NCBI RefSeq assembly: GCF_024741135.1
Contig: NZ_JANSUY010000001.1
Coordinates: 248,001-312,000 of the forward strand
DNA: 64,000 bases
Direction: 5' to 3'
Source: Aquiflexum gelatinilyticum
GTDB taxonomy: Bacteria; Bacteroidota; Bacteroidia; Cytophagales; Cyclobacteriaceae
Every line of letters begins with the position of its first letter. Positions within the stretch are counted from its first letter, which is position 1. The notes under the pieces were generated by a model that was not told the origin of the DNA, did not search any database, and saw only the letters and a program-made list of their open reading frames with translations. Below, one piece after another: positions 22,868 through 28,804 of this stretch. The position numbers and the translations under genes are program-made.

Positions 22868-22989
22868 ATTTTTGATTGAAAGAATGGCAGGTAGCTGTGA
22901 TGTATCGGCTAAATCTAACCCGTTTTCCCTAATGGTTCTCCTGCCTTTCCCCTAGACTTCTCCTTACCCCTAGTATACTTTCTCCTACT

Positions 22990-23045
22990 GATACTCCGTG
23001 TCTGTCCTAGGGATACTCCGTGTCATAGCTAAGGATACTCCGTGT
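22990..23045. repeat. Three 13-bp direct repeats
   Basis: GATACTCCGTGTC occurs at 22990-23002, 23012-23024 and 23033-23045, with starts 22 and 21 nt apart, about two helical turns. The spacers differ. This arrangement could be a multi-site protein-binding region or a small tandem repeat. No gene overlaps it. Confidence 0.75.
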
Positions 23046-23148
23046 CTGCCTTACCCTTGAGCTACTCTTGGGCCGCACGTCAACCTGAGTAAAGCGAAGT
23101 GTCTCACGTAAAGTAAATGAGATCCTTCAGTCGTACCTCCTTCAGGAT

Positions 23149-23597
23149 GACGGCTCCAGCAATTCATAATTATGAATTCAGAATTCAGCATTAACTTTTT
23201 CTCTCGCTTCTCGCCTCTCGTTTCTCGCTTCTTTTTCCCAACAAAGAGATTCTTCACCTCCGCAAGCTCCGGTTCAGAATGACGGCTCCAGCAATTTATA
23301 ATTATGAATTCAGAATTCAGCATTAACTTTTTCTCTCGCTTCTCGCCTCTCGTTTCTCGCTTCTTTTTCCCAACAAAGAGATTCTTCACCTCCGCAAGCT
23401 CCGGTTCAGAATGACGGCTCCAGCAATTTATAATTATGAATTCAGAATTCAGCATTAACTTTTTCTCTCGCTTCTCGCCTCTCGTTTCTCGCTTCTTTTT
23501 CCCAACAAAGAGATTCTTCACCTCCGCAAGCTCCGGTTCAGAATGACGGCTCCAGCAATTTATAATTATGAATTCAGAATTCAGCATTAACTTTTTC
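23149..23597. repeat. 132-bp tandem repeat, about 3.4 units
   Basis: Units start at 23149, 23281, 23413 and 23545 (GACGGCTCCAGCAATT...). The fourth is cut short as it runs into a heptamer array. The three full units are nearly identical. Each unit has an AT-rich part with GAATTCAGAATTCAGC, a short run of TCTCGYY heptamers, and a palindrome of the AGATTCTTC...CAGAATGAC type. The open frame across it on the minus strand merely repeats 44 residues and is not credible as a gene. Confidence 0.92.
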
Positions 23598-23674
23598 TCT
23601 CGCTTCTCGTCTCTCGTTTCTCGCCTCTCGCTTCTCGTCTCTCGTTTCTCGCTTCTCGTCTCTCGTCTCTCGTT
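23598..23674. repeat. Heptanucleotide tandem array, 11 units of TCTCGYY
   Basis: Eleven uninterrupted 7-bp units (TCTCG followed by CT, TC, TT or CC) run to 4 nt before the stop codon of the acyl-CoA oxidase-like gene (23679). It resembles the short tandemly repeated repetitive heptanucleotides known from cyanobacteria. The same heptamers occur four at a time inside each 132-bp unit. Confidence 0.88.
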
Positions 23675-23678
23675 TCTT

Positions 23679-25979
23679 TTAAATTGATTTTACTGCAATA
23701 GGAGCACTTATGCAGCTTTCCGGTATCCCAAAAGCATCTGTCAAAGCCAAGGCATTTTTCCTCACTTCCCAACAAAGTTGATTGACTTCCTTGCGGATGG
23801 CTTTGGATTTGACGCCTTCCATATAGCCCTGCTCGAGGTACCAAGCGCTGTTTTTCTCGATGGTGTGGAGGGCATAAAGTTGGCAGAGTTGGGCTATGGC
23901 CATTTGGCAGCTTTCGTCCTCGGTTTCATTCACCTGCTTTTGGAACTGCTCCAAAACAATCCTTTCGATATAGGCCTGTGCTACATTGACGAGGTGGTGC
24001 TGTGCGACATTGAAGGCATCAAAGGAATCCATGCCCTGCTCGATGTGCCGTTTGAGCCTTTGGGCAGCACTGCTGAGGATGGAATTTTCCCGATACCGGA
24101 AGGCGTTGAGATGGAATTCAAAATCCAAGAGGTGTTCGGTTGCGGTACTCCGGACGATAATGGGGTTTTTCTCTGTGAAAGAAGTGCGGGCTTGGCTGAC
24201 CACAAAATTGAAAATGGTGGAGATGTTCATGTCCCCAAATTCCCTCCTGAATTCCGTCAGCCTGTTTTTGGCGACCAACTGCATCAGGACGGTGTTGTCG
24301 CCCTCGAAGGTGGTATAGACATCGGTGTCGTTTTTCAGGGCATCGATCCGGTTTTCGGAGAGATACCCTTTGCCGCCACATGCTTCCCTACATTCCTGCA
24401 AAGTGGCCGTGGCAAACCAAGTAGCATAGGATTTCAGGCCTGCCGCCAAAGCTTCGATTTCCATGGCTTCTGCTTCGGTCCGGTCGAGGAACTTTTGGGT
24501 AAGGTATTTCAAAGCGAAATGGATGGCATAGGCTTCTGCCAAGGGCGGCATCAGTCTCCTTTGGTGCATGCGGTAGTTGAGGATCGGGATTTCTTCCCCT
24601 CCTTCCGGCCCAAACTGTTTCCTGTTTTCTCCATGCCGGATGGCGATAGTCAGCCCTGTTTTGGTGGCGGAGATGGCCGATCTCGGGATCCCGATCCGGC
24701 CACCGACAAGGGTTCCCAACATGGTAAAAAACCTCCGGTTGTCCGAACTGATGGAACTTTCAAATTCACCTTCTTCACTGACCGAAGCGTATTTGTCGAG
24801 CATGTTTTCTTTTGGGATGACTACTTGGTCAAAATAAATAACGCCGTTGTCAACCCCGTTGAGTCCCATCTTTCTGCCACAGTCTTCTATCCGGACACCC
24901 GGAATCATCTTGCCATCTGTAGTCCTGAGTGGTACAATAAAAGCATTGACCCCATAATCTTCTCCATCTATGATCAGCTTTGCAAAGACAGTTGCCATTT
25001 GTCCGTGCAGGGCTGCGTTGCCGATATACTCCTTTCTCGCATCCGGATTTGGCGTATGGATGGTAAAGGTTTTGTTTTTGTGATCGTAGGTGGCGGTGGT
25101 TTCCAAGCCACGGACATTGGAACCGTGACCTGTTTCGGTCATGGCAAAGCAACCGGGAAGCTTCAGACTTCCGATGTCTTTGAGGTAGTTGCGGTGGTGT
25201 TTTCCTGTTCCCAAAAAGTAAACACTCATGCCCCAAAGCCCAAACTGCACCCCAAACTTGATTACCATGCTGAGGTCATGGTAGCTGAGCGTTTCCATGA
25301 TGGTGAAGTAACCTTCCATGTCGTTTTTGCCTCCGGCATAGTCGGGAAATGCCCAGGCTCCAAAACCGTGTTTGCTGAGCTCCTGACACCAAGTCAAGAC
25401 TTGTTCCCTTTGCTCAGTCAGGGAATCATATTCCCGGTACGCAAATGAAGGTTGGGAAATTACCTGCTTTACCTTTTGGATCAGTTCAGCCTGATTGCCA
25501 TCAAGCAAAGCAGCCATCTTTTTGATGTCAAAGTTGCTTTCCTTTTTGTATTCCGTGGAGATGGTCTCATGACCAGACTTGAAGTTGTATTTGGCTTCTT
25601 TGCTCAAAAGCCCAAGGGAGAGTTCAGTTTGCTGGAAATCCTCCTTCAGACTTTCCTCAAATGATATTTCGGTATCACCGGCATGCTGTTGGGCCAAAGA
25701 TTTCCCGATTTCATACAGGTCGGTCAGGCCTTCGAGTTCCAGCTTTTGGATGATGGCTTTCCAGGATTTCAGTTCCTTGGGCTTTGGTGGTTTTGAAGGC
25801 TCGAGGTGGGATTGCAACCATTTTTTTTCCTCTGCTGACAACCAAAGCTGTTTTTCGATCAATTGCTGCATGCCTTCCGCTTCAGTTGTGGTGAGTTCGC
25901 TATCCGCCCAAAGGCTGTAATAGAGAGGAAGAAAAATGTAAAGTTTTGGGTTTTTGTTGAGTTTATCAGATCGGAGCAT
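23679..25979 (-). CDS. Acyl-CoA oxidase/dehydrogenase-like flavoprotein
   Basis: 766 residues, the length of large acyl-CoA oxidase-type proteins. After an N-terminal helical region (about 1-190) comes the flavin-binding segment GCFAMTETGHGSNVRGLETT (about 278-297), characteristic of acyl-CoA oxidases. The FAD/substrate region includes GRIGIPRSAISATKTGLTIA, and the presumed catalytic base lies in TTFEGDNTVLMQ (Glu near 561), after CGGKGYL. It should oxidise acyl-CoA to trans-2-enoyl-CoA in fatty-acid degradation; whether oxygen or an electron-transfer flavoprotein accepts the electrons is not decidable here. The gene is isolated and bounded by repeat arrays at both ends. Confidence 0.9.
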   Translation of the reverse strand: MLRSDKLNKNPKLYIFLPLYYSLWADSELTTTEAEGMQQLIEKQLWLSAEEKKWLQSHLEPSKPPKPKELKSWKAIIQKLELEGLTDLYEIGKSLAQQHAGDTEISFEESLKEDFQQTELSLGLLSKEAKYNFKSGHETISTEYKKESNFDIKKMAALLDGNQAELIQKVKQVISQPSFAYREYDSLTEQREQVLTWCQELSKHGFGAWAFPDYAGGKNDMEGYFTIMETLSYHDLSMVIKFGVQFGLWGMSVYFLGTGKHHRNYLKDIGSLKLPGCFAMTETGHGSNVRGLETTATYDHKNKTFTIHTPNPDARKEYIGNAALHGQMATVFAKLIIDGEDYGVNAFIVPLRTTDGKMIPGVRIEDCGRKMGLNGVDNGVIYFDQVVIPKENMLDKYASVSEEGEFESSISSDNRRFFTMLGTLVGGRIGIPRSAISATKTGLTIAIRHGENRKQFGPEGGEEIPILNYRMHQRRLMPPLAEAYAIHFALKYLTQKFLDRTEAEAMEIEALAAGLKSYATWFATATLQECREACGGKGYLSENRIDALKNDTDVYTTFEGDNTVLMQLVAKNRLTEFRREFGDMNISTIFNFVVSQARTSFTEKNPIIVRSTATEHLLDFEFHLNAFRYRENSILSSAAQRLKRHIEQGMDSFDAFNVAQHHLVNVAQAYIERIVLEQFQKQVNETEDESCQMAIAQLCQLYALHTIEKNSAWYLEQGYMEGVKSKAIRKEVNQLCWEVRKNALALTDAFGIPESCISAPIAVKSI

Positions 25980-26173
25980 GTTGTTGCGTTTGGTCAGTAT
26001 TTCAATTTAACGGTCTTTTTTTAATTATTGGTTAAAGGTTAAATGGTTATTTGGTTAACTGATACCACCGCTCACCATTGCTTCTTACTTCATACTTGGT
26101 ACTTGGTACTTCCAAACCTCCTAACCTCCCAACCTCCCAACTTCCCTCCCGAGAATGTATAAAATCTTGCCTT

Positions 26174-26197
26174 GTGACCTCGACGTAGGAGAGGTCT
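26174..26197 (-). repeat. REP-like palindrome, stem ACCTC/GAGGT
   Basis: On the minus strand it reads AG, ACCTC, a 9-nt loop beginning and ending in TC, GAGGT, then CAC. It has the same layout as the other palindromes of this region but different stem bases. Confidence 0.65.
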
Positions 26198-26260
26198 AAA
26201 AACACTTCTGTTTACCTGCCTTTCTTTGCGTCTCGGCGTCTTTGCGAGACTCATTTTCTT

Positions 26261-26286
26261 AGATTTCTCTCTGCGTTCGAAATGAC
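26261..26286 (+). repeat. REP-like palindrome, stem ATTTC/GAAAT
   Basis: Reads AG, ATTTC, an 11-nt loop (TCTCTGCGTTC), GAAAT, GAC. It has the same flanks (AG before, GAC after) and loop edges (TC...TC) as the other copies, with a compensated stem. Confidence 0.7.
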
Positions 26287-26451
26287 AAGGATAGGCTTAT
26301 CCTGTTTCTTGATTTCGGTCATTCCTTAACTCTTGGTACATAGTACTTAGTACTTGGTACCTCCCAACTTCCAAACCTCCCACTTCCTATCCTCCTGACT
26401 TCCCACCTTCCAAACTTCCAGCCTTCCCACTTTTTCCCTACTTTTAACACT

Positions 26452-27450
26452 ATGAAAAAGATCCAAGACCAGGAAGTCCGTTGGGGGGTGTTGGGAGTCG
26501 GCAATGTCTGCGAAGTCAAGTCCGCACCTGCTATGAAACACATCCCACATAGCAAATTGGTAGCCGTCATGCGCCGCGATGAAGCCAAGGTCAAAGACTA
26601 TGCACTCCGCCATGATGTCCCAAAGTGGTATACATCCGCTGAGGAATTGGTCCATGACCCGGAAGTCAATGCCGTCTACATCGCTACCCCGCCACACATG
26701 CACCTGCCTCTCACAAGGTTGGTGGCTGCTGCCGGCAAACCTGTCTATGTCGAAAAACCCATGGCAAGGACCTATGCCGAATGCAGGGAAATGATCGCCG
26801 TCTGTGAGGAAGCCGGAGTTCCGCTGTATGTGGCCTATTACAGAAGGGCATTGCCCCATTTTTTGAAAATTAAAGAATTGATGGATTCCGGCGCCATCGG
26901 AGACATCCGAACTGTCCACATCAACCTGAAGCAGGTCCTCAAACCCGAAGTGGTCGTACACCTGGAAAACAACTGGCGCATAAATCCTGAAATTGCCGGT
27001 GGGGGATACTTCTTTGATTTGGCTTCCCATCAGTTGGATTTGCTGGATTTCTTTTTTGGTCCGGTGACCAAGGCAAGCGGTTTTTCATCCAACCAAGCCA
27101 AAGCATACCATGCGGAAGATATTGTGACCGGAAGTTTTGTCTTTGAAAACGGTGTCTTGGGATCAGGAAATTGGTGTTTTACTACCTCCAGGACAGCGGA
27201 GATCGATGAGATTACCATCTATGGCAGTAAGGGGCTGATCCGTTTTGAGACCTTTGGCAAAGGGGAGTTTACCCTGGAATCAGATCAGGAGGATCCTATC
27301 CATTACCATGTCGACCTGCCCAAACACATCCAACAGCCTTTGATCAAATCCATTGTCGAGGACTTATTGGGAACAGGAACTTGCCCAAGCACCGGCCGCA
27401 CAGCTGCAAGGACCAATTGGGTGATGGGGGAGTTGGTGAATAAATTCTGA
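26452..27450 (+). CDS. Gfo/Idh/MocA family NAD(P)-dependent oxidoreductase
   Basis: 332 residues, cytoplasmic. The N-terminal Rossmann domain has GVLGVGNVCEVKSAPAM and, near residue 100, the family motif EKPMA that follows the NAD-binding strands (AVYIATPPHMHLPL). The C-terminal alpha/beta domain (about 130-330) includes GGGYFFDLASHQLDLLDFFFG, with the conserved Asp/His pair that often acts in catalysis. Substrate is probably a sugar or inositol-like polyol, but cannot be specified. No partner genes adjoin it; repeat arrays lie on both sides. Confidence 0.92.
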   Translation: MKKIQDQEVRWGVLGVGNVCEVKSAPAMKHIPHSKLVAVMRRDEAKVKDYALRHDVPKWYTSAEELVHDPEVNAVYIATPPHMHLPLTRLVAAAGKPVYVEKPMARTYAECREMIAVCEEAGVPLYVAYYRRALPHFLKIKELMDSGAIGDIRTVHINLKQVLKPEVVVHLENNWRINPEIAGGGYFFDLASHQLDLLDFFFGPVTKASGFSSNQAKAYHAEDIVTGSFVFENGVLGSGNWCFTTSRTAEIDEITIYGSKGLIRFETFGKGEFTLESDQEDPIHYHVDLPKHIQQPLIKSIVEDLLGTGTCPSTGRTAARTNWVMGELVNKF

Positions 27451-27483
27451 ATGGTAAATGAGTAATTAAGAATGCCGGACCTT

Positions 27484-28722
27484 AACCCGACAACCTTGAC
27501 AACCCGACAACGCGAAGTAGACAACAAATACAACAATTACAACCACTACAACAATTACAACCAATAGACCCTTCGTGCCTCAGGATGACGCATCCCAACC
27601 CGACAACCCGACAACGCGCAGCAGACAACAATTACAACAATTACAACCACTACAACAATTACAACCAATAGACCCTTCGTGCCTCAGGGTGACGCATCCC
27701 AACCCGACAACTTGACAACGCGCAGCAGACAACCACTACAACAATTACAACCACTACATCAATTAGAACCAATCTTTGAACCAAGTACAAAGTACCAAGT
27801 ACCAAGTTGCGATCCCTACAACTTGACAACCTTGACAACCCGACAACGCGAAGCAGACAACAATTACAACAATTACAACCACTACAACAATTACAACCAC
27901 TACAACAATTACAACCACTACAACAATTACAACCAAGAGACCCATCGTGCCTCAGGGTGACGGTTCCCCACCTGACAACCCGACAACCCGACAACGCGAA
28001 GTAGACAACAATTACAACCACTACAACAATTACAACCAATAGACCCTTCGTGCCTCAGGGTTACGGTTCCCAACCCGACAACCCGACAACCTTGACAACC
28101 CGCCAACGCGACGCAGACAACAATTACAACAATTACAACCACTACAACACTTACAACCAAGAGACCCATCGTGCCTCAGGGTGACGGTTCCCCACCTGAC
28201 AACCCGACAACCCGACAACGCGAAGTAGACAACAAGTACAACCACTACAACAATTACAACCAATAGACCCTTCGTGCCTCAGGGTTACGGTTCCCAACCC
28301 GACAACCCGACAACCTTGACAACCCGACAACGCGAAGCAGACAACAATTACAACAAATACAACAATTACAACCACTACAACCATTAGAACCTAGAGATTC
28401 TTCGCTGCACTCAGAATGACGAATCCCAACCCGACAACCGACAACTTGACAACGCGAAGCAGACAACAATTACAACCACTACAACAATTACAACCAATAG
28501 ACCCTTCGTGCCTCAGGGTTACGGTTCCCAACTCGACAACCTGACAACGCGAAGCAGACAACAATTACAACCACTACAACAATTACAACCACTACAACAA
28601 TTACAACCAATAGACCCTTCGTACTTTAGGGTGACGCATCCCAACCCGACAACCTGACAACGCGCAGCAGACAACAATTAGAACAACTACAACAATCACA
28701 ACCATCACAACCTCTTCCACCA
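27484..28722. repeat. Composite minisatellite array of about 11 units
   Basis: Units of about 103-130 bp are composed of three blocks: (a) 8- to 9-mers of the CCCGACAAC/CTTGACAAC type ending in GCGAAGCAGACAAC; (b) 9-mers AATTACAAC and CACTACAAC, in variable number; (c) a palindrome AGACCCTTCGTGCCTCAGGG followed by TGACG. Palindrome anchors start at 27566, 27670, 27938, 28041, 28162, 28265, 28395, 28499 and 28612. In one unit it is replaced by ACCAAGT heptamers (27779-27806). Frames are open on both strands only because the units lack stop codons. It fills the gap between the oxidoreductase and the pyrophosphatase gene. Confidence 0.93.
28395..28420 (+). repeat. REP-like palindrome, stem ATTCT/AGAAT, within the minisatellite
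   Basis: Reads AG, ATTCT, TCGCTGCACTC, AGAAT, GAC. It occupies the position held by the ACCCT/AGGGT palindrome in neighbouring units, so one unit has exchanged both stem arms together. Confidence 0.75.
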
Positions 28723-28736
28723 TTTTTTTTCAATTG

Positions 28737-28767
28737 GTTGCTAGATAAGTGAATAATAATATCTTTG
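28737..28767 (+). promoter_or_regulatory. Bacteroidota-type promoter for the pyrophosphatase gene
   Basis: GTTG at 28737-28740 as the -33 element, a 19-nt spacer, then TATCTTTG at 28760-28767, an exact TAnnTTTG match. The start codon is 37 nt further on. The promoter starts just after the repeat array ends. Confidence 0.6.
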
Positions 28768-28804
28768 TCGCATCAAAAATTTTAGGGTTAACCCAAGATA
28801 ATTT

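Follow-up and report, generated by a model that had tools for sequence, protein, structure and literature searches.

Introduction

The repetitive extragenic palindromes (REPs) with a CGTC tag were described as a superfamily by Di Nocera, De Gregorio and Rocco in 2013 (PMC3733652). Each is a palindrome with an 8-9 bp stem and a 4-5 nt loop, one end of which has the tag, CGTC (or TGTC/CCTC), left unpaired; head-to-head dimers predominate, tail-to-tail dimers are rare, and the partners are unlike in CGTC-2 and CGTC-3. No association with a transposase is reported in that description. The present study concerns a dispersed family of palindromes in a 64,000-nucleotide stretch of the draft genome of Aquiflexum gelatinilyticum (5.0 Mb in 57 contigs; NZ_JANSUY010000001.1, positions 248,001 to 312,000, i.e. 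C1:248001-312000); this whole stretch is termed the window. Judged by their sequence, these palindromes are CGTC-tagged REPs, placed in the known superfamily by its text description and without a family number.

Other systems are close to these. Inverted pairs with a tag at the hairpin foot are also the arrangement of GTAG REPs and REP doublets forming hairpins (REPINs) (PMC3116915, PMC8266576, PMC6006769). The E. coli enzyme TnpA-REP needs mispairing in the REP stem (PMC8266576) and cuts at CT. The neisserial repeat dRS3, which is CGTC-1 in the 2013 scheme (PMC3733652), goes with short repeats in the neisserial intergenic mosaic element (NIME) arrays and is used by phages for integration (PMC3898611), and REPs are the target of the insertion sequence (IS) ISPpu9 (PMC8450116).

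The original prediction had called the elements REP-like, and the copies fit the CGTC superfamily in tag, dimer form and position. Common to both are a terminal CGTC/TGTC, short dispersed palindromes, a mostly intergenic location, a predominance of head-to-head dimers and the lack of a linked transposase, and CGTC REPs are known from Bacteroidetes (PMC3733652). The elements differ in having five Watson-Crick pairs followed by GA/GA and a variable inner part, in a CTC tail (the patterns used here demanded GAGA/CTC) where the 3-nt tail of CGTC REPs is mostly CCA, and in forming tandem arrays in the window, whereas clusters are called rare for CGTC REPs (PMC3733652). A conserved stem irregularity is a likeness to E. 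coli-type REPs (PMC8266576, PMC6006769); unlike GTAG REPs and REPINs, the tag is CGTC/TGTC rather than GTAG/GTGG, and no cognate REP-associated tyrosine transposase (RAYT) was found. As with dRS3 and NIME, CGTC hairpins are tied to short non-coding repeats and used as an integration site, although the stems are unlike the dRS3 consensus ATTCCC(N8)GGGAAT (PMC3898611). The unit inserted here, termed unit X, shares site-specific insertion into a REP with ISPpu9 (PMC8450116), but is non-coding, measures approximately 120-390 bp in the cases with both ends located, and has CGTC half-hairpins at its ends. What is new is the written fold rule and the precise insertion behavior; the superfamily itself is known, and its range is wide.

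Results

Stem covariation across the genome

Selection for a hairpin had been proposed from the window alone, on the grounds that both stem arms change together between copies. For the whole genome, a pattern was used in which the first stem pair, the TC edges of the loop and the tag were fixed, leaving four free positions per arm. It returned 58 copies, 29 per strand, and reversed controls returned 0 and 1; the own-genome count varies with the pattern (53 with a control of 0, 58, or 56). Removal of 7 identical neighbors left 51 copies, and the free positions were fully paired in 43 of these. Shuffling of the 3' arms (2000 times) gave a mean of 9.8 and a maximum of 23 fully paired copies; when arms were shuffled only within loop-length classes (5000 times), the mean was 27.9 and the maximum 37.

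Compared with the commonest pair at each position, 147 stem cells were unchanged and 48 were changed on both sides and still Watson-Crick, and 9 were not Watson-Crick (3 one-sided G-T, 3 one-sided mismatches and 3 two-sided mismatches); the copies are related by descent, and these cells are not independent events. Compensated changes thus exceeded the others genome-wide (48 vs 9), the reverse of the result that had been set beforehand as refuting the covariation. The matched changes in the stems indicate conservation of the fold, and the proposal of selection for a hairpin is supported.

Fold rule of the element

On the strand bearing the tag, the rule is YGTC-N5-GA-(inner part)-GA-N5'-CT, one copy with an ACCTC stem having TGTG; the TC...TC loop edges of the original description are GA...GA on this strand. 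With no pairing condition on the arms, 80 of the 115 distinct elements had GA/GA in the own-genome/congener set, which includes a few loci of another genus (next pair type, 2), and in 194 of 242 from 117 genome_contigs stretches, an outside set that also contains Bacteroidota, some from the own genus (next pair type, 7). In 41 own stretches, largely chosen for element matches, the tag [CT]GTC occurred with GA/GA 67 times and with other dinucleotide pairs 1-5 times; three permuted tags with GA gave 0-5, and the highest control cell, a permuted tag with AA, was 13. The unpaired CGTC/TGTC at the palindrome end is tag-specific, with permuted tags at background.

Pairing was examined in 27-mers chosen by tag and GA/GA alone, with no pairing demanded. 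Outer cells were Watson-Crick in 231 of 270 cases in the own/congener set (148 when shuffled; maximum 165) and 194 of 245 in the second set (135; maximum 156). Given an outer hairpin, inner cells were paired in 51 of 88 (34; maximum 43) and 65 of 78 (48; maximum 58), respectively, and the inner pairs covary, G-C switching with A-T on both sides together. Of the distinct 27-mer hairpins, 36 of the 44 in the first set and 30 of the 39 in the second had a GNA apex. The 27/28-nt type consists of five Watson-Crick pairs, GA/GA, two inner pairs (the second often T-G) and a 3-nt apex, which makes nine steps with GA included; in longer types the inner part is extended. Tandem G-A pairs and GNA loops are stable in DNA.

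Copies in the window

All of the stems previously quoted were present at their positions. A scan of the window with [CT]GTC-N5-G[AT]..GA-N5'-(CT/TT/CC), allowing at most one stem mismatch, gave 10 matches, and five permuted tags gave 0, 0, 1, 0 and 1. The elements and arrays are listed below, with the search that returned them in parentheses where applicable.

23078..23105, + strand: S-type CGTC element, 28 nt, with a degenerate stem; left partner in an inverted head-to-head dimer (genome pattern)
23119..23152, - strand: M-type CGTC element, 34 nt, ATCCT/AGGAT; right partner in this dimer, beyond a 13-bp spacer (genome pattern, window scan)
23141..23628, no strand: 3.7 tandem copies of a 132-bp unit, containing L elements and simple sequence of the CTCTCGCTTCTCGC type
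23246..23284, - strand: L-type CGTC element, 39 nt, ATTCT/AGAAT, in the 132-bp unit (genome pattern, window scan)
23378..23416, - strand: L-type element, unit 2, ATTCT/AGAAT (genome pattern, window scan)
23510..23548, - strand: L-type element, unit 3, ATTCT/AGAAT (genome pattern, window scan)
26173..26197, + strand: related hairpin ACCTC-GA-CGTAG-GA-GAGGT; tag TGTG where TGTC is expected
26260..26287, - strand: related hairpin TGTC-ATTTC-GA-ACGCAGA-GA-GAAAT-CT (window scan)
27498..28711, no strand: array of ~95-113 bp units (overlapping Tandem Repeats Finder rows), ACAACAATTACAACCACT / CCCGACAACC simple sequence
27565..27590, - strand: XS-type element, 26 nt, ACCCT/AGGAT, one uncompensated change
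27669..27694, - strand: XS-type element, ACCCT/AGGGT (window scan)
27937..27962, - strand: XS-type element, ACCCA/AGGGT, uncompensated (genome pattern)
28040..28065, - strand: XS-type element, ACCCT/AGGGT, tag CGTA
28161..28186, - strand: XS-type element, ACCCA/AGGGT, uncompensated (genome pattern)
28264..28289, - strand: XS-type element, tag CGTA
28394..28421, - strand: S-type element, ATTCT/AGAAT (genome pattern, window scan)
28498..28523, - strand: XS-type element, tag CGTA
28611..28636, - strand: XS-type element, ACCCT/AGGGT, loop variant

The layout given for these copies in the original prediction (AG, arm, TC...TC, arm, GAC or TGACG) stood as regards the stems and the loop edges; it did not hold throughout the second array, where stems of the ACCCT type are in part broken and TTACG replaces TGACG in 3 of the 5 fully paired copies. 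Likewise, the copy at 23119-23152 is real, and its inverted partner at 23078-23105, with a degenerate stem, had been overlooked.

Dimers, position and spread

Among the 58 copies, close inverted pairs were head-to-head in 11 of 11 cases, with CGTC on the outside and unlike partners. In ten of these dimers a 28-nt element has a longer partner of 34, 38 or 39 nt, and in the eleventh the partners measure 38 and 35 nt; spacers are 7-8 or 12-13 bp. By simple open reading frame (ORF) calls, 31 of 32 loci are intergenic, lying between unidirectional (23), convergent (6) or divergent (2) genes; the one locus inside an ORF was taken to lie in a spurious one. All gaps >60 bp in the same stretches comprised 127 unidirectional, 45 convergent and 48 divergent cases.

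An exact dimer pattern (~28 base equivalents) matched at least 117 stretches, where ~0.002 chance matches were expected by a hand estimate. Many of the dimer-bearing records are metagenome bins; the isolates include Bacteroidota and Sedimentibacter saalensis. By our assumed mapping of record names, they presumably span at least 12 phyla, including Omnitrophota, Acidobacteria, Patescibacteria, Chloroflexi, Planctomycetota, Cyanobacteria/Melainabacteria, Proteobacteria and Bacillota. ORFs of at least 90 aa from 80 of the 117 stretches were compared all-against-all, and no common neighbor gene family was found; clusters comprised at most 5 loci.

Unit X inside the hairpins

Comparison was made with the same-genus genomes of Cognataquiflexum rubidum (G001), C. 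nitidum (G002), Aquiflexum sp. TKW24L (G003) and C. aquatile (G004), and with G005, from another genus of the same family. It revealed a non-coding unit of roughly 120-390 bp, unit X, that inserts at one fixed point of the hairpin. Its left end reads ACCAATGACR, and its right end YGTCATTNC..GAACATT..AATGTTGRRGACT. Six genomes together contain 57 copies of the right end, against 0 for the reversed control; across the family, 8 of 78 genomes have it. Examples are:

L100 / L327 (G001:C4)
L236 (own genome, C14:106239-106312)

From the 57 right ends, 42 had a tag downstream, 42 had a left end and 34 had both, 23 being dropped; a foot of AG, GG or AA was allowed, and a few of the 34 are inherited copies of a single insertion, e.g. 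L246 and L287. The joining point lies 10 nt 3' of the CGTC end, between the G and the A of the first GA. The base before the unit was T in 31 of 34 sites, and that after it, next to the 3' arm, was C in 31 of 34; the unit joins after CT at 19 of 34. The interrupted arms of the host were still exactly complementary in 12 of 34 sites (5000 shuffles: mean 4.0, maximum 10), and the intact-arm hosts comprise five stem types, ATTCT, ACTCT, ACCCT, ATTTC and ACCTC. The ATTTC/GAAAT type of window positions 26260-26287 also hosts unit X in G001 (L291). Two sites filled in G001 are empty in congeners: the first in G000 and G004 (G002 and G003 lack the host hairpin there), and the second in G004. The cargo of the unit varies, being a CGTC dimer or other palindromes.

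CGTC hairpins are thus precise landing sites for unit X, and this insertion is new here; no report of unit X was found among the open-licence papers listed. Besides ISPpu9, IS1397 and IS621 also insert into REPs. The arrangement of unit X resembles the neisserial NIME arrays (PMC3898611, PMC3733652). No phage was seen at the compared sites, and no dedicated phage search was made.

Two further observations concern inserted palindromes. The ACCTC/GAGGT hairpin type of window positions 26173-26197 is also present in G005 (L304, L234, L249 and L253), where it hosts unit X (L304) or is its cargo. A small palindrome, TCCCGA...CGGGA, lies within the loops of M', S and L elements (L065, L042, L327 and others) as a hairpin within a hairpin, and is apparently a third inserted unit.

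Discussion

Proposed mobilization of the elements

The tag, the GA/GA steps, the covarying outer and inner pairs, the unlike head-to-head dimers, the mostly intergenic position and the insertion of unit X were observed directly. They are best explained if the palindromes are non-autonomous hairpin DNA elements moved in trans by an enzyme other than a linked RAYT or an IS110-type recombinase, which is probably the case. Spread would take place through short hairpins into which a single strand folds, namely that with 5'-CGTC, and the enzyme, acting in trans on single-stranded DNA, would recognize the fold and the tag. Because the enzyme would read fold and tag, any stem base pair would serve, and the arms would change together. 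CGTC REPs are without a dedicated transposase according to the 2013 report (PMC3733652), and the fold rule together with an exact insertion point makes this question testable. With empty sites between congeners, and with the negative results for Y1 linkage and for PF02371 in the genus, oligonucleotide and knock-out tests are possible.

Several results weigh against this explanation. No mover enzyme was found by the Y1 and PF02371 searches or by ORF clustering. Empty sites are known for unit X, and none was found for a dimer alone. Single elements folded no better than shuffles under a DNA energy model of the CGTC strand (z: S 0.08, XS -0.22, M 0.34, L -0.89), and since this model gives monomers no advantage, their stability would rest on the tandem G-A and GNA motifs; by strict peeling of all types, a GNA triloop ends only 30 of 80 and 65 of 194 GA/GA elements. 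One 75-nt dimer did fold strongly (-17.5 kcal/mol, z -4.2), and 0 of 200 shuffles equaled it. In the second window array, the stem is broken on one side in 3 of the 8 copies of the ACCCT type (27565, 27937 and 28161). Finally, 17 of the 51 copies had at least 5 T in the 8 nt directly after the CTC end, as compared to a background of 8% of positions, and a T-rich stretch followed the GACG end in 0 of 51; this stretch may be part of the element, a terminator feature or flanking sequence, a point taken up below.

A second possibility, which we rate as unlikely, is that CGTC hairpins are the sites of an unrecognized single-strand recombination system that joins unit X cassettes to at least five host stem types at one point. 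Unit X often carries a CGTC dimer, and its insertion in the first GA step would leave two hybrid hairpins; the heterodimers and the X arrays would be products of this system. With no linked Y1 gene and no IS110-type recombinases, the mover would be a new or unsuspected host enzyme. A circle junction reading ...GACT joined to ACCAATGACG would fit this model.

A Y1 enzyme (RAYT/TnpA-REP) might instead move the elements in trans, in the manner of GTAG REPs; we consider this improbable. A RAYT-type enzyme was one explanation offered in the original prediction, and RAYT linkage did not survive as a general rule. Y1 genes are present in 43 of 50 CGTC-bearing genomes searched, the dimer geometry is like that of REPINs, and the CT at which E. 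coli TnpA-REP cuts recalls the joining of unit X after CT. Against this, no Y1 gene was found in 7 of the 50 genomes, the records of which may be incomplete, and Di Nocera and coworkers report no transposase association (PMC3733652). The own genome has two Y1 genes, and the palindromes on the flanks of each are of a distinct type with no relation to the CGTC elements:

L009 (900-2100) and L010 (1100-2020): ACCCCGAAGGGGTGAT type and GACCTCGAAGGTC type

From CGTC-bearing genomes, 85 Y1 stretches (84 places, one gene twice) were collected, a set that does not cover every Y1 gene. A relaxed scan marked 7 of these, and by eye genuine CGTC elements were present in 2, both from the Omnitrophota genome G029; the marks in L263, L271, L320, L379 and L387 were judged to be chance matches. 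In L280 (G029:C24, Y1 match 1501-1827), a dimer lies ~40 nt past the gene stop and a second lies 1.3 kb upstream, beyond other ORFs; in L398, an element lies ~0.2 kb from the 5' side of the Y1 match; the third G029 stretch, L397, has no element. G029 is the one lead for Y1 linkage, but because it has 94 elements in 2.3 Mb, this adjacency may be due to chance. When the surroundings of 31 Y1 genes were scanned for CGTC hairpins of any kind, the counts were not above those for permuted tags, and no relation between the numbers of Y1 genes and elements was evident by eye in six genomes. On the own-genome flanks, the permuted-tag scan and the 2 of 85 stretches, RAYT linkage is rejected as a general rule.

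Apart from the G029 cases, no linkage to Y1 genes was seen in the stretches covered; other transposase classes were covered by the ORF clustering and by a search with PF02371 (IS110-type, E up to 1e-5). The latter gave no match in G000-G005, ruling out an IS110-type recombinase as the mover in those genomes. PF02371 was present in 12 of 32 genomes; a relaxed scan of 20 IS110 stretches gave 4 matches, with L359 and L358 being clear elements, L366 having the tail CG and L356 probably being due to chance. In G003 (C1:281349-283525, L269), three Y1 transposase genes with equal scores stand in a row, ~0.9 kb apart.

It is comparably improbable that the hairpins act mainly as RNA at transcript 3' ends, in stability or termination, and covary for that reason. 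The T-rich stretches after the CTC end described above, which keep the possibility of an RNA role open, count in its favor, as do the scarcity of loci between divergent genes (2 of 32, vs 48 of 220 gaps) and the T-G pairs common next to the apex (20 of 44 and 11 of 39 distinct hairpins). On the other side, G-T pairs made up 5 of 39 and 12 of 51 non-Watson-Crick outer cells, near the 2/12 expected; terminator-like sites in 22900-28800 were at chance level (7 found, 6.2 in shuffles), and two of the 7 coincide with the copies at 27937 and 28161 in the array; both orientations are present in every dimer; and no Rfam match at or above the gathering threshold was obtained. Between DNA and RNA, a choice that the original prediction left open, the evidence is mixed but leans to a DNA role.

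That the covariation arose by descent only, a few ancestral variants having been copied without selection on the stem, is very unlikely: although four stem types (ATTCT, ATCCT, ACCCT and ACTCT) cover 40 of 51 copies, several stem types occur within the 28-nt class with the 3' arm following the 5' arm, ATTTC, ACCTC, ATCTT, ACACT and, elsewhere, ATGCT stems also pair, and the inner pairs change in concert as well.

Arrays and simple sequence

The tandem arrays of the window would be later, local duplications of a hairpin with its flanking simple sequence. At the place of the 27.5-28.7 kb array, the aligned flanks in G003 are 462 bp apart, as compared to 1137 bp in the window, and approximately one array-like unit is present there in G003, together with an L element into which unit X is inserted; for these reasons, the window array is regarded as a local expansion within the genus. 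ACAACAATTACAACC occurs 19 times in the window array, as compared to twice in the entire G003 stretch. Dispersed low-complexity texts (CTCTCGCTTCTCGC, ACTTGGTACTTAGTACTTGG, ACAACAATTACAACCACT and CCCGACAACCTGACAACG) adjoin many elements, at window positions 23190-23680, 26090-26420 and 27480-28720, at C2:47884-48438 and in other element flanks. In G002, alternating elements build a long array (C12:114279-116023).

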